In this document: positions 6,284 to 64,000 of the stretch, one piece after another
How the letters are laid out: each line of letters opens with the position of its first letter
How positions within the stretch are numbered: position 1 is the first letter of the stretch
Assembly: GCA_902790635.1 (NCBI GenBank)
Contig: CADASN010000001.1
Span: 1-64,000, forward strand
DNA from: an uncultured Bacteroidia bacterium
Lineage (GTDB): Bacteria; Bacteroidota; Bacteroidia; Bacteroidales; UBA932
Direction of reading: 5' to 3'
DNA length: 64,000 nucleotides
Made by a program: the position numbers and the translations under genes
Notes under the pieces: model-generated
Databases searched by the model: none
Told to the model about the DNA's origin: nothing
Seen by the model: only the letters and a program-made list of their open reading frames with translations

Positions 6284-6325
6284 ATGAAGAAATACAACGC
6301 ATACCACCATCACCACCGAGTCTGA
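6284..6325 (+). CDS. hisL: histidine operon leader peptide
   Basis: A 13-codon ORF reading MKKYNAYHHHHRV and then TGA. Four consecutive His codons (CAC CAT CAC CAC, 6305-6316) lie just before the stop, as in enterobacterial HisL. It is followed by an intrinsic terminator at 6366-6401 and then hisG. A ribosome starved for charged His-tRNA would stall here and free the bases from about 6326 onward. The peptide itself probably has no other function. The composition, position and downstream terminator together make chance unlikely. Confidence 0.8.
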   Translation: MKKYNAYHHHHRV

Positions 6326-6425
6326 GGATCCGGTAGGTCGACGCGTGTATGCGTAAGCGATTGTGCGAGGCTTGCCGGGATGCCGGGAGGCCTCGTTTTT
6401 TGATGTGTCCGGCCAGCAGGCCGGA
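6326..6425 (+). promoter_or_regulatory. his attenuator region (candidate antiterminator segments)
   Basis: GGATCCGG at 6326-6333 can pair imperfectly with CCGGGATGCC at 6375-6384, which is the upper stem of the terminator, so the two folds compete. A further perfect 7-bp hairpin with an AGCA loop (6408-6425) lies between the terminator and the hisG start. The pairing was worked out by eye, without energies. Confidence 0.5.
6366..6401 (+). terminator. intrinsic terminator (attenuator) before hisG
   Basis: CGAGGC at 6366-6371 pairs with GCCTCG at 6390-6395. The helix continues through a T-G wobble and a T-A pair, one mismatch and CCGG/CCGG around a GATG loop. Six Ts follow immediately (6396-6401). 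It lies between the leader peptide stop and hisG, so read-through is needed for expression of the operon. Confidence 0.8.
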
Positions 6426-38473: not shown

Positions 38474-40915
38474 CTAGATGTTGGCAATGCTCATGATGTC
38501 GGCGAAGACACCTGCCGCCGTCACGTCGGCGCCGGCCCCGTAGCCCTGGATGAGCATCGGGTGGCGGTTGTAGCGCTCCGTCGTCAGGAGGATGATGTTG
38601 TTGGAGCCGTCCAGCACATAGAAGGAGTGCTGGTTCTCCACGGCGCGCAGGCACACGGAGAGCTTGCCTTCCTCCATCTTGGCCACGAATCTCCAGCGCT
38701 TGCCTTCGGCCTCGAGCTGCCGGCGGCGCGCCTCGAAATCGGCGTCGAGGGAGGGGAGACGATCCCAGAACTCCTGCTCGCTGCAGGTAAAGAACTCCTT
38801 GGGGATGAAGAGGTTGGCCTCTACGTCCTCTTGGTTTACTTTATATCCCGCCTCGCGGGAGAGGATGACCAATTTGCGGATGACATCCTTGCCCGAAAGG
38901 TCGATGCGCGGGTCGGGTTCGGAGAAGCCCTGCTCCTGGGCCATCTTCACGGTGCGGCTGAAGGGGATGTCGGCGGAGATGGTGTTGAAGATGAAGTTGA
39001 GCGTGCCGCTCAGCACGGCCTCCATCTTGAGGATGCGGTCGCCGGAATTGCGCAGGTCGTTGATGGTGCCGATGATCGGCAGGCCCGCGCCGACGTTGGT
39101 TTCGAAGAGCCATTTGACCCCGCGCTTGCGGGCGAGATCCTTGAGGTGCCGGTAGTTGGCGTAGTCGGAGGAGGCGGCGATCTTGTTGGCCGCCACCACG
39201 GAGATGCCGTGGTCGAAGAAATCGCCGTACAGGGCGGCCACGTCGGCGCTGGCGGTGCAGTCCACGAACACGGAGTTGAAGATGTTCATTCCGAGGACCT
39301 CCTCGCGGAGCCGCTGCGTATCGATGGGGATGGCGTCCTGCCGGAGGATCTCCTCCCAACGGGAAAGGTCGATCCCGCCGCGGTCGAAGACGGCGCAGCT
39401 GCTGCGGGCGATGCCCACGATATTGATTTTGAGCCCGCGGGAGCGCATCAGGCGCTCGCGTTGCCGGGCGATCTGGCCGATCAGGCGGCCTCCCACCGTG
39501 CCAATGCCGCAGATGAAGAGGTTGAGCTCCTGGTATTCGGAGAGGAAGAAGCTGTCGTGGATGACGTTGAGGGACTTGCGCAGCTGGCGGCGCTCCACGA
39601 TGAAGGAGATGTTGGACTCCGCGGCGCCCTGGGCGAGGGCGATCACGCTGATGCCGTTGCGTCCCAGGGTGGTGAACAGTTTGCCGGCGATACCGGCGTG
39701 CTGCTTCATGTTCTCGCCGATCACGGCCACGGCGGCCAGTTCGTTGCGCACTTCGACGGGGTTGATGGCCCCGCTCGCGATCTCCCGCTCGAAAGCCTCG
39801 GAGAGAACCGCCTGCGCGCGGTCGGCGTCAGCGCGGCTCACGCCGATGGAGATGCCGGTCTCGGAGGCCGACTGGCTGACGAGGAAGGCGCTGATCTGCT
39901 CCTGGGCGAGGGCGGCGAAGATGCGGCTGTCCACACCCACGATACCGACCATCGAGGTGCCGGAGAGGGTGATCAGGCTGATGTCGTCGATGGATGAGAT
40001 TCCTTTGATGGAAGTGGTGCCGGGAGCGACGGTTTTTTTCACGATCGTGCCCGGTGCTTTCAAATTGAAAGTATTTTTGATCAGGATCGGAATGCCTTTC
40101 GCGCAGACCGGATAGAGGGTCGGCGGGTAGATGACTTTCGCCCCGAAATTGCACAACTCCATCGCCTCTTCATAGGTCATCTCCTTGATGACGTAGGAGG
40201 TCTTGATGATGCGCGGATCGGCGGTCATGAAGCCGTCCACGTCGGTCCAGATCTCGAGCTGGGCGGCGTCCAGGGCGGCAGCGATCAGGCTGGCCGTGTA
40301 GTCGGAGCCCCCGCGTCCGAGGGTGGTGGCCTCTCCGGTGACGGCGTCGGAAGCGACGAAACCCGGCACGACGGCTGTCGCGCCGGAGGCGCTCCAGTCA
40401 CGGAAAGTATTCTGTATCAGTTGGTAAGTAAGATCCTGATCGACGATGTCCCGATTGCCCTGGCGGTGGGTCTTGATGAAGGCGGTGGCATCGTAGCGGA
40501 CGGCCCCGGGCAGCACGGCGGCGATGATGCGGGAGGAGAGCTGCTCCCCGAAGCCCATCACCTCATGCGCCGTCTTGGGCGGCAGGACATGCAGCAGGAA
40601 AATCCCCTCGCAGATGCGCTCCAGCTGGGAAAGCAGCCCGTCCAGTTCCGCCTCGAGGGCGCTGCGCTGCGCCGTGTCCTCCAGCAGGCCTTCGCAGACC
40701 CGGCGGTGGCGCTCCCGCAGCTGCACGATCTCATCGCGGAACGCGGTGTCGCCCCGCTCGGCGAGCCGGGACGTCCGGATCAGCTGGTCCGTGACGCCGC
40801 CCAGGGCCGAGACGACCACGATGGAAGGCTCTTGTCGGGAACTTACGATTTCTTTGACTTTGCAGATGCTCTCCGGGGTACCCACCGAAGATCCGCCGAA
40901 TTTGAGGATTTTCAT
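38474..40915 (-). CDS. thrA: bifunctional aspartokinase / homoserine dehydrogenase
   Basis: An 813-residue fusion. Residues 1 to about 300 are the kinase (MKILKFGGSSVGTPESI, later LGRGGSDYTASLIAAAL), about 305-455 tandem ACT domains (SIDDISLITLSGTSMVGI, VAVIGENMKQHAGIAGKLF) for threonine feedback, and about 465-813 homoserine dehydrogenase (FICGIGTVGGRLIGQ, DCTASADVAALY, GAGLPIIGTINDL). It makes both the entry and homoserine steps. A second, monofunctional aspartokinase is at 55469, so the window holds two differently paired isozymes. Confidence 0.97.
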   Translation of the reverse strand: MKILKFGGSSVGTPESICKVKEIVSSRQEPSIVVVSALGGVTDQLIRTSRLAERGDTAFRDEIVQLRERHRRVCEGLLEDTAQRSALEAELDGLLSQLERICEGIFLLHVLPPKTAHEVMGFGEQLSSRIIAAVLPGAVRYDATAFIKTHRQGNRDIVDQDLTYQLIQNTFRDWSASGATAVVPGFVASDAVTGEATTLGRGGSDYTASLIAAALDAAQLEIWTDVDGFMTADPRIIKTSYVIKEMTYEEAMELCNFGAKVIYPPTLYPVCAKGIPILIKNTFNLKAPGTIVKKTVAPGTTSIKGISSIDDISLITLSGTSMVGIVGVDSRIFAALAQEQISAFLVSQSASETGISIGVSRADADRAQAVLSEAFEREIASGAINPVEVRNELAAVAVIGENMKQHAGIAGKLFTTLGRNGISVIALAQGAAESNISFIVERRQLRKSLNVIHDSFFLSEYQELNLFICGIGTVGGRLIGQIARQRERLMRSRGLKINIVGIARSSCAVFDRGGIDLSRWEEILRQDAIPIDTQRLREEVLGMNIFNSVFVDCTASADVAALYGDFFDHGISVVAANKIAASSDYANYRHLKDLARKRGVKWLFETNVGAGLPIIGTINDLRNSGDRILKMEAVLSGTLNFIFNTISADIPFSRTVKMAQEQGFSEPDPRIDLSGKDVIRKLVILSREAGYKVNQEDVEANLFIPKEFFTCSEQEFWDRLPSLDADFEARRRQLEAEGKRWRFVAKMEEGKLSVCLRAVENQHSFYVLDGSNNIILLTTERYNRHPMLIQGYGAGADVTAAGVFADIMSIANI

Positions 40916-40939
40916 AAACTAACTAACACGTTTGCATCC

Positions 40940-40970
40940 CAAAGTAAAGCATTTTTAAGATTTTTTCAAA
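40940..40970 (-). promoter_or_regulatory. promoter of the thr operon
   Basis: On the reverse strand TTTG (40970-40967), 19 bases, then TTACTTTG (40947-40940), one mismatch from TAnnTTTG. Transcription would start about 20 bases before the thrA ATG, leaving no room for a leader peptide or attenuator. Confidence 0.6.
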
Positions 40971-41053
40971 ATATTTTGCAGTGTTCCTTGCATTTTCGGC
41001 AAAAATTCCCGAATTTCGTGACCGTTATGGGGCTTTTGTGCCCAGGTTAGATT

Positions 41054-63216: not shown

Positions 63217-63261
63217 AGTCCACTTGCAAGTATTTCGTGAATCAAAAAACATGAAAAAACT

Positions 63262-63292
63262 CTTGCATTTCCGGATTTTCTTCGTAAATTGC
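63262..63292 (+). promoter_or_regulatory. candidate promoter of the leader-glnN transcript
   Basis: CTTG at 63262-63265 and TAAATTGC at 63285-63292 are 19 bases apart. The -7 element lacks one T of the consensus, but the following GCACTCG context is promoter-like. An alternative -7 (AATTTTTG, 63298-63305) has no -33 partner. Confidence 0.4.
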
Positions 63293-63316
63293 ACTCGAAT
63301 TTTTGGTTTTGTAGTA

Positions 63317-63394
63317 GTGGCACGCACGTTCAACAATCAGCAGAATCAGCAGTCCCAGTCCCAGCAGGTCTGGTCTGTTTCTGTGTGCGTATAA
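63317..63394 (+). CDS. candidate glutamine/asparagine-rich leader peptide of glnN
   Basis: From a GTG start the frame reads V/M-ARTFNNQQNQQSQSQQVWSV and ends VCV-TAA. Seven CAG (Gln) and three Asn codons occur within twelve codons (63332-63367). The downstream gene is glutamine synthetase III, so Gln stalling would match the operon product. The same frame is open back to an ATG at 63251 (47 residues), but that start would precede the likely promoter. The start is therefore uncertain. Not a recognised protein family. Confidence 0.5.
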   Translation: MARTFNNQQNQQSQSQQVWSVSVCV

Positions 63395-63444
63395 TCCAGC
63401 CGTATGCGACACCTTATTGATAGAAACAAAAGATAAATCAGATA

Positions 63445-63473
63445 GAGAGGCTGGTCCGGCGGACCAGCCTCTC
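63445..63473 (+). promoter_or_regulatory. 13-bp perfect hairpin between the leader ORF and glnN
   Basis: 63445-63457 pairs perfectly with 63461-63473 around a GGC loop. No T-run follows, so it is not a textbook intrinsic terminator. GGTCTGGTC at 63367-63375, directly after the Gln codons, can pair with GACCAGCC (63462-63469) of its right arm with one bulge, giving an alternative fold. ATTGATAGAAA flanks it as a direct repeat at 63416-63426 and 63476-63486. Confidence 0.5.
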
Positions 63474-63516
63474 GCATTGATAGAAAGTAGTTAGTTTAAC
63501 AAATAAGTGTATTGTT

Positions 63517-64000
63517 ATGGACAGAATTGATTTGGTCAAGGAATCCTTCGAAAGGAAAGAGGTTCCGGCAGAAGTCCCCGCTGGCAAGACTTCCGAGTAT
63601 TTCGGCGAACTCGTGTTCGACCGCAAGAAGATGTGCAAATACCTGGATGCCGACAGCCTCCAGGCGCTCCTGGCCTGCATCGAAGGCGGTGAGCCGCTCG
63701 ACCGCAAAACGGCCGACGGCGTGGCCCGCGGCATGAAGGAATGGGCCATGGAGCATGGTGTGACCCATGTCACCCACTGGTTCCAGCCGCTCACCGAAGG
63801 CACCGCCGAGAAGCATGACTCCCTGATCGACTATGACGGCAAAGGCGGCGTGATCGAGACCTTCGACGGCAAGATGCTTGCCCAGCAGGAGCCGGACGCC
63901 TCGTCCTTCCCCAGCGGCGGCATCCGCGCCACCTTCGAAGCCCGCGGCTATACCGCCTGGGATCCGACCTCCCCGGTCTTCATCCTCGACGACACGCTTT
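63517..64000 (+). CDS. glnN: glutamine synthetase type III (3' truncated by window end)
   Basis: The frame runs from [20 protein letters not shown] to the window edge, 161 codons without a stop. [20 protein letters not shown] and [19 protein letters not shown] are characteristic of the GSIII N-terminal region, the large dodecameric enzyme common in Bacteroides. It makes glutamine from glutamate, ammonia and ATP. It has a 300-base upstream region with a Gln-rich leader ORF and hairpin. The catalytic C-terminal part is outside the window. Confidence 0.94.

Follow-up and report, generated by a model that had tools for sequence, protein, structure and literature searches.

A candidate glutamine/asparagine leader-peptide attenuator ahead of a glnN nitrogen-assimilation operon in an uncultured Bacteroidales bacterium

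The leader region and the operon behind it

The 64,000-nucleotide stretch of Bacteroidales DNA analysed here (the window) ends within glnN, which encodes a type III glutamine synthetase (GSIII) and is preceded by a short open reading frame dense in glutamine and asparagine codons. An earlier note, made from the letters alone, had named this gene, and a Pfam match confirms the assignment; the gene starts at 63517. The features of the region and of the contig beyond the window are as follows.

63262..63292, + strand: promoter-like site CTTG-N19-TAAATTGC of the Bacteroidetes -33/-7 type, placed weakly, by eye
63317..63394, + strand: leader ORF of 25 amino acids, VARTFNNQQNQQSQSQQVWSVSVCV, with a probable GTG start and a TAA stop, from comparison with relatives
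63332..63367, + strand: putative regulatory codon run, 10 of 12 codons Gln or Asn (7 CAG, 2 AAT, 1 AAC), content conserved
63377..63427, + strand: outer stem of predicted hairpin P1, GTTTCT (63377-63382) with AGAAAC (63422-63427), with co-variation
63383..63412, + strand: inner stem of P1, GTGTGCGTATA (63383-63393) with TATGCGACAC (63403-63412), 10 pairs and one bulge
63396..63401, + strand: putative antiterminator motif CCAGCC in the P1 loop, complementary to GGCTGG (63449-63454)
63445..63473, + strand: terminator-like hairpin GAGAGGCTGGTCC-GGC-GGACCAGCCTCTC, 13 bp with a 3-nt loop and here no U-tract
63517..64000, running past the window, + strand: glnN, type III glutamine synthetase, first gene of the operon (Pfam GSIII_N, E 1.3e-59)
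65743-70218, same orientation as glnN: gltB (NCBIfam)
70225-71571, same orientation: gltD (NCBIfam)
71568-73193, same orientation: pyrG, CTP synthase (NCBIfam)
73174-74919, same orientation: purF-like gene, amidophosphoribosyltransferase-like (PurF model matched below cut-off)
75035-75382, same orientation: glnK, PII (NCBIfam below cut-off, above the Pfam cut-off)
75424-76641, same orientation: amtB, ammonium transporter (NCBIfam)
76653-78320 (contig coordinates), same orientation: asnB, asparagine synthetase B (NCBIfam)

The genes lie head to tail in the order glnN-gltB-gltD-pyrG-purF-like-glnK-amtB-asnB, and their spacing suggests that one transcript would carry glnN to asnB. Judged by their annotations, the products would make glutamine, glutamate and asparagine and would also use glutamine. 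In Prevotella ruminicola 23, transcripts of glnN-2, gltBD, glnK, amtB and asnB shift strongly with ammonium (PMC5552732), in a direction that this paper gives inconsistently, as induction by limitation in one passage and by excess in others; the words "leader" and "attenuat-" are absent from its main text.

The earlier note counted 10 Gln or Asn codons among 12 in the frame ending at 63394, and the count is correct: codons 6-17 read N N Q Q N Q Q S Q S Q Q (7 Gln, 3 Asn, 2 Ser). Such a density exceeds that of shuffled sequence, since the best 12-codon count averaged 3.8 and peaked at 7 when the 420 nt ahead of GSIII were shuffled 1000 times with dinucleotides preserved. At least 7 Gln or Asn in 12 codons occur in 45 of 100 full-length GSIII upstream regions and in 0 of 1000 shuffles (10 per region). 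The leader frame averages 8.9 Gln and Asn per 12 codons across 39 distinct windows, compared with 0.05 and 0.28 in the other two frames; because leader windows were selected for Gln and Asn, the shuffles rather than the other frames are the fair control. The start codon, which the earlier note had left uncertain, can now be placed with some likelihood: relatives have an ATG or GTG a few codons 5' of the run, at matching places in the nearest ones, which points to GTG at 63317 and a leader of 25 residues.

Codon choice within the leaders is biased. In the 39 distinct windows, Gln is encoded by 226 CAG and 0 CAA codons (534 CAG and 50 CAA in 32 long ORFs of the window) and Asn by 81 AAT and 40 AAC (143 AAT and 274 AAC in the same long ORFs). 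Leader Asn codons favour AAT while ordinary genes favour AAC, and the leader Gln codons counted are CAG only. This CAG/AAT bias may serve either the sensing of tRNA charging or the folding of the RNA.

The Bacteroidetes promoter consensus is TTTG-N19..21-TANNTTTG. Sites scoring at least 9 in a promoter scan occur in 19% of 48 leader regions and in 1.8% of shuffles, a comparison with weak statistics. The best-scoring site of the window (score 8) is a different one from 63262..63292, and the placement of the promoter there is thus weak.

The leader among relatives and before other nitrogen genes

The window's genus is rich in species, and 300 of them were sampled; 103 GSIII upstream regions of the genus, the window's included, were analysed. 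Calling a leader where at least 6 of 12 codons are Gln or Asn and the frame ends 60-200 nt before GSIII, we find one in 48 of the 103 regions and none in 55. Where GSIII begins with the window-like M[DE]RxxLV, 38 of 46 regions have a leader; two groups whose GSIII begins differently have one in 5 of 31 and in 5 of 26 regions. In L014 and L110, whose GSIII genes have no leader, one lies instead before asnB, further up the same contig. Example leaders are MAYTVYNQQQNQQSQGNQSGVVSACV (L002), MSFVVLNNNNQNNNQNQQVLIASV (L012) and MNGFYHHFSGYSAQQQKQDQGQQALGVALCIR (L017, with a GSIII 64% identical). Composition is conserved while the order of residues shuffles between relatives, and despite this shuffling the distance from run to stop is 20 codons in many leaders.

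A covariance model built from 21 glnN leaders only was run on the window's own genome and on 151 genomes of the genus. The own genome has one strong match, the glnN leader itself; weak matches there (L117, L119, L120, L122-L124) were read as ordinary terminators and set aside. Some match at E <= 0.05 occurs in 129 of the 151 genomes, most of them weak. We read 50 matches, 30 with loci and 20 picked from those ranked next (E 3.4e-6 to 2.9e-5, omitting antisense twins and some other rows of that range). Thirty-six combine a Gln/Asn leader with a nitrogen gene, 14 have neither and none is mixed. The genes behind the 36 leaders are glnN (25, many of these matches being training sequences of the model), asnB (6), glnK (3), gltB (1) and a purF-like gene (1). 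A separately fetched locus, L155, has an 11/12 run before glnK-amtB.

The leader also heads other gene orders: leader-asnB-glnN-gltB-gltD (L159), leader-asnB-glnK-amtB (L157), leader-glnK-amtB-gltB (L158) and leader-gltB-gltD (L156). The earlier note had assigned the device to GSIII; it does precede GSIII, and it also heads a nitrogen-assimilation operon and stands before other nitrogen genes. Leaders before glnN are Gln-rich and those before other nitrogen genes are Asn-rich, the Gln share of Gln plus Asn being 0.68 in distinct glnN leaders (n = 40) and 0.33 in the others (n = 9), with p = 1.3e-5 when kinship is ignored. Asn codons probably count as well as Gln codons in sensing.

These comparisons bear on the possibility that the leader is an arrest peptide, sensing free glutamine through ligand-dependent stalling of the nascent chain rather than through tRNA charging. 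The C-terminal part of the leader (QQVxxxSxCV, for example) is alike among near relatives, as an arrest peptide might require, but it differs in more distant members. The run is moreover conserved in composition and in neither sequence nor register, and its Asn/Gln share varies with the downstream gene, all of which makes us consider an arrest peptide very unlikely and keep to a leader read through tRNA charging.

The device also occurs in named records. By eye, it stands before GSIII in three of them, L217, L221 and L227, which are metagenome-assembled genomes (MAGs) deposited as Prevotellaceae, Muribaculaceae and Bacteroidaceae and may or may not belong to the window's genus. Among the matches listed in named records are at least 80 GSIII loci, of which 8 reach 6 Gln/Asn (L210, L214, L215, L217, L221, L226, L227 and L253); L226, which is partly masked, and L253 were dismissed. 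In L227, judged by eye, the leader is followed within the 480 nt ahead of GSIII by two distinct terminator-like hairpins in series, with GGCTGG in both left arms. Twenty-nine further GSIII loci of the order yielded 27 that could be scored (L364 and L369 have no located start). Two of these, L344 and L345, come from a single genus of another family, one genome each, reach 6/12 and carry related leaders, an Asn/Lys-rich version of the device. L361 has 7/12 Gln/Asn in a frame that ends at the GSIII start and was dismissed.

Model R1 matches 82 of 159 genomes at the level of the order (E <= 0.001), and none of its best 19 order-level loci besides the window's has at least 6/12 Gln/Asn or is followed by any nitrogen gene found in the window's operon. 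Of the 29 PII loci listed for the order outside the window's genome, the 28 scored (all but L189) gave no further clear leader; their upstream regions reach 7/12 in L171, 6/12 in L188 and 5 or fewer in the rest, and L174 belongs to the window's genus. Among at least 30 asnB loci of the order, the window's included, none reaches 7/12 and three (L296, L302 and L310) have 6; the start of asnB is misplaced at L316. It is the lack of a further clear case in these PII, asnB and R1 samples that makes the device look patchy outside its home genus. At L302, in another family, asnB (locus position 1501) is preceded within 420 nt by an ORF rich in Asn, MFILNNFNLLINNNPFER, together with a terminator-like hairpin that has a T6. 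This ORF may be an independent asparagine leader.

Pairing segments between the leader and glnN

The earlier note reported a perfect 13-bp hairpin at 63445-63473, which is exact. It further proposed that 63367-63375, directly behind the Gln codons, can pair with the right arm of this hairpin and so forms the switch. By eye, the letters of the window allow such a stem (CTGGTC with GACCAG), yet relatives do not conserve it: across 41 sequences it scores 12.59 within species and 12.51 between species paired at random (p = 0.40). We replace it with a pairing to the left arm, between CCAGCC (63396-63401) and GGCTGG (63449-63454). Of what relatives had been expected to share, comparison upholds the Gln/Asn content and the frame, and it supports the CCAGCC stem with the left arm in place of the one with the right arm.

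For these comparisons the 48 leaders were reduced to 41 distinct trimmed ones (6 identical sequences were dropped, as was L053, whose motif was left unassigned). Alignment A1 holds 34 of the 41, omitting L017, L038, L040, L052, L058, L081 and L082 and keeping about six badly aligned rows, and alignment A2 holds 21 leaders. In the 34 aligned distinct sequences, the outer stem of P1 is paired in 75.0% of cells with 4 of 6 pairs changed on both sides, the inner stem in 80.9% (4 of 7) and the terminator stem in 97.4% (5 of 9). The motif and the left arm of the terminator pair in 97.3% of cells, and at one position 5 of 34 rows show a compensatory exchange of A-U for G-C; in these five rows the loop motif, left arm and right arm change jointly (A/U/A to G/C/G). 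The motif consensus among relatives is CCRGYC. The window's CCAGCC starts 2 nt past the stop codon of the leader. Some relatives have the stop 3' of the motif, so that a translating ribosome would pass over it.

Permutation between 41 species favours the same pairings. Within-species scores exceed permuted ones for the motif with the left arm (16.29 vs 14.89, with 0 of 2000 permutations as high), for the arms of P1 (14.80 vs 13.15) and for the arms of the terminator (30.17 vs 22.48), 0 of 2000 permutations reaching the observed value in the latter two cases. The inner P1 stem has at least 5 pairs in 43 of 49 sequences, and its mean score lies above all 1000 between-species permutations. The tests also flag pairings outside the proposed model (motif with right arm, p = 0.01; leader start with the right strand of P1, 0/2000), and because the species are related they are inflated by relatedness. 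One slid control has 11 pairs changed on both sides compared with 9 in the structure with the motif, and 9 such pairs are reached by 32 of 500 shuffles; the remaining measures favour the structure.

The linkers within the P1 loop are short. A search allowing 1-8 nt before the motif and 0-4 nt after it found 2-4 nt before in 39 of 49 sequences and 0-1 nt after in 39 of 49; the window's own linkers are 2 and 1 nt. Short loop linkers suit an H-type pseudoknot as a general rule. The position of the motif, inside the loop of the co-varying P1 hairpin, is the one it would have in an H-type pseudoknot, a physical structure that these patterns suggest.

Folding programs give a partial picture. From the 34-row alignment RNAalifold predicts the terminator only. 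Folds of single sequences lie just a little lower than those of shuffles (mean z -0.8) and leave the motif wholly unpaired in 27 of 41. When the window RNA is folded without a ribosome, the left strand of P1 pairs with the start of the leader; positions 63323-63330, at the leader start, are complementary to this strand (GTGTGCGT). The pairing has p = 0.012 and is strong in the window's subclade only, where it is suggestive of the leader start acting as a fourth pairing segment.

The earlier note listed the absent T-run as a weak point. In the window this is true, the longest T-run around the end of the right arm being 2, yet among 41 distinct leaders 30 carry at least 4 Ts in a row there and 11, the window's among them, at most 3. 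A hairpin without a U-tract would fit a different account, in which the region constitutively terminates part of transcription, or is a structured 5' segment that binds a protein or controls translation, and the CAG repeats act as RNA or DNA and not as codons. That every Gln codon in the 39 distinct leader windows is CAG would fit it too. Conservation of the frame, and mostly of the distance to the stop, argues against it, as do the Asn codons interspersed with Gln and, by eye, the use of CAA alongside CAG in the leader of the MAG L221. We regard this account as quite unlikely and return to reading the run as codons.

A proposed attenuator and its relation to known systems

We interpret the region as a transcription attenuator of the ribosome-mediated type, standing in front of a nitrogen-assimilation operon and sensing the charging of tRNA-Gln and probably that of tRNA-Asn as well; we give this reading a probability of roughly 0.8. 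Comparison of sequences supports the leader with its frame and codon content, P1 and the pairing that competes with the terminator, the stem of the terminator itself, the order of the genes and the presence of the device before other nitrogen genes. The locus has an ORF with a codon run and comparative evidence of translation, downstream genes predicted to make glutamine and asparagine, and an exclusive alternative pairing that a ribosome at the stop codon could mask. The earlier note's idea of amino-acid attenuation is thereby retained in its leader, terminator-like hairpin, exclusive alternative pairing and Gln/Asn-making operon, and changed in its switch stem. From these parts we infer a single transcript, ribosome stalling, a direction of response and a physical pseudoknot, as set out below.

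Transcription would begin just 5' of the leader. With glutamine and asparagine plentiful, the leading ribosome would reach the stop codon (63392-63394) and mask CCAGCC and the left strand of P1, whereupon the GAGGCTGG...CCAGCCTC hairpin would fold behind RNA polymerase and transcription would terminate. With charged tRNA-Gln or tRNA-Asn scarce, the ribosome would stall in the codon run, leaving the inner P1 stem and the motif free (by general knowledge of the ribosome footprint). P1 would then fold ahead of it and display CCAGCC in its loop, and the looped motif would pair with the emerging GGCTGG, block the terminator and allow glnN-gltBD-pyrG-purF-like-glnK-amtB-asnB to be transcribed. The antiterminator pairing has 6 bp and the terminator 13 bp, so the former would have to win by timing.

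This inequality also lends itself to an opposite role for P1, whereby its loop hides CCAGCC as an anti-antiterminator and stalling favours termination, or whereby P1 is a pause hairpin that couples polymerase and ribosome. P1 and the terminator do not overlap and could coexist, as that role would have it. Glutamine synthesis would then drop when glutamine is scarce, however, and the motif sits in a loop with short pseudoknot-like linkers and co-varies with the left arm. We consider the opposite role unlikely and favour P1 as the element that presents the antiterminator.

The window contains a second leader. A His leader, MKKYNAYHHHHRV (6284-6325, + strand), precedes hisG (6451) and is followed by a strong hairpin at about 6365-6395 and by T6 at 6396-6401; the region 6284-6401 looks like an ordinary histidine attenuator and suggests that the lineage uses leader attenuation. 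The 450 nt upstream of ilvD (window 40604-41053) show no leader peptide. Rfam covariance models for amino-acid leaders, T-boxes and glutamine riboswitches, at gathering score, have 0 matches in the 64-kb window; as they also miss the window's own his leader, this says little against the general kind.

Leader-peptide attenuators of the trp/his/leu/thr type are known in Proteobacteria. With these and with the window's his leader the proposed device shares a short leader rich in the regulated amino acid, a terminator before the first gene and a competing pairing. It differs from them in that the amino acids are glutamine and asparagine, that the operon is one for nitrogen assimilation and includes PII and an ammonium transporter, and that the antiterminator would form by pairing of a hairpin loop with a terminator arm instead of as a long stem. 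Firmicutes have T-box riboswitches specific for Gln or Asn. They likewise sense tRNA charging and use a terminator and antiterminator, but they read the tRNA directly, have no leader ORF and find no Rfam match in the window. Glutamine riboswitches, the glnA and Downstream-peptide RNAs, occur in cyanobacteria. Together with the gltD motif (PMC8632094) they resemble the device as RNA control of glutamine or glutamate metabolism; unlike it, they are presumed to be ligand-binding RNAs that have no regulatory codon run, and the window has no Rfam match to them.

In the same phylum, clues of leader attenuation before amino-acid operons have been described for Flavobacterium psychrophilum (PMC9723704). 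These too are leader peptides before amino-acid biosynthesis operons, whereas the passages on them mention neither a glutamine nor an asparagine example. For Bacteroides thetaiotaomicron, short ORFs that resemble leaders are mentioned in PMC7366714. The earlier note knew of no established glutamine leader peptide, and our searches agree: we found no glutamine or asparagine leader peptide in Rfam or among the open-licence PMC papers listed, an earlier mention elsewhere being possible (e.g. Lopatovskaya et al. 2010). This kind of control is thus known; what looks new is the choice of amino acids, the regulon it serves and probably its pseudoknot form.

A wider reading extends to the whole of nitrogen assimilation in this lineage. 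It holds that GSIII, GOGAT, PII, the ammonium transporter, asparagine synthetase and glutamine-using enzymes all answer to one family of attenuators that have Gln/Asn codons and a pseudoknot antiterminator, that tRNA charging does the work done elsewhere by NtrC, TnrA/GlnR or NtcA, and that the Gln:Asn codon ratio is tuned to the first gene of each operon. We put this at slightly under even odds.

Bacteroidales are abundant in the gut and rumen, glutamine is a common nitrogen signal in bacteria and, to our knowledge, nitrogen sensing in Bacteroidales is poorly known. If the proposed attenuator is real, a switch responding to the charging of tRNA with glutamine would be a type of sensor not found in the literature searched, and one RNA device would have stayed at the head of nitrogen operons through changes of gene order. 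The device would also offer a searchable mark for the nitrogen operons of uncultured species.
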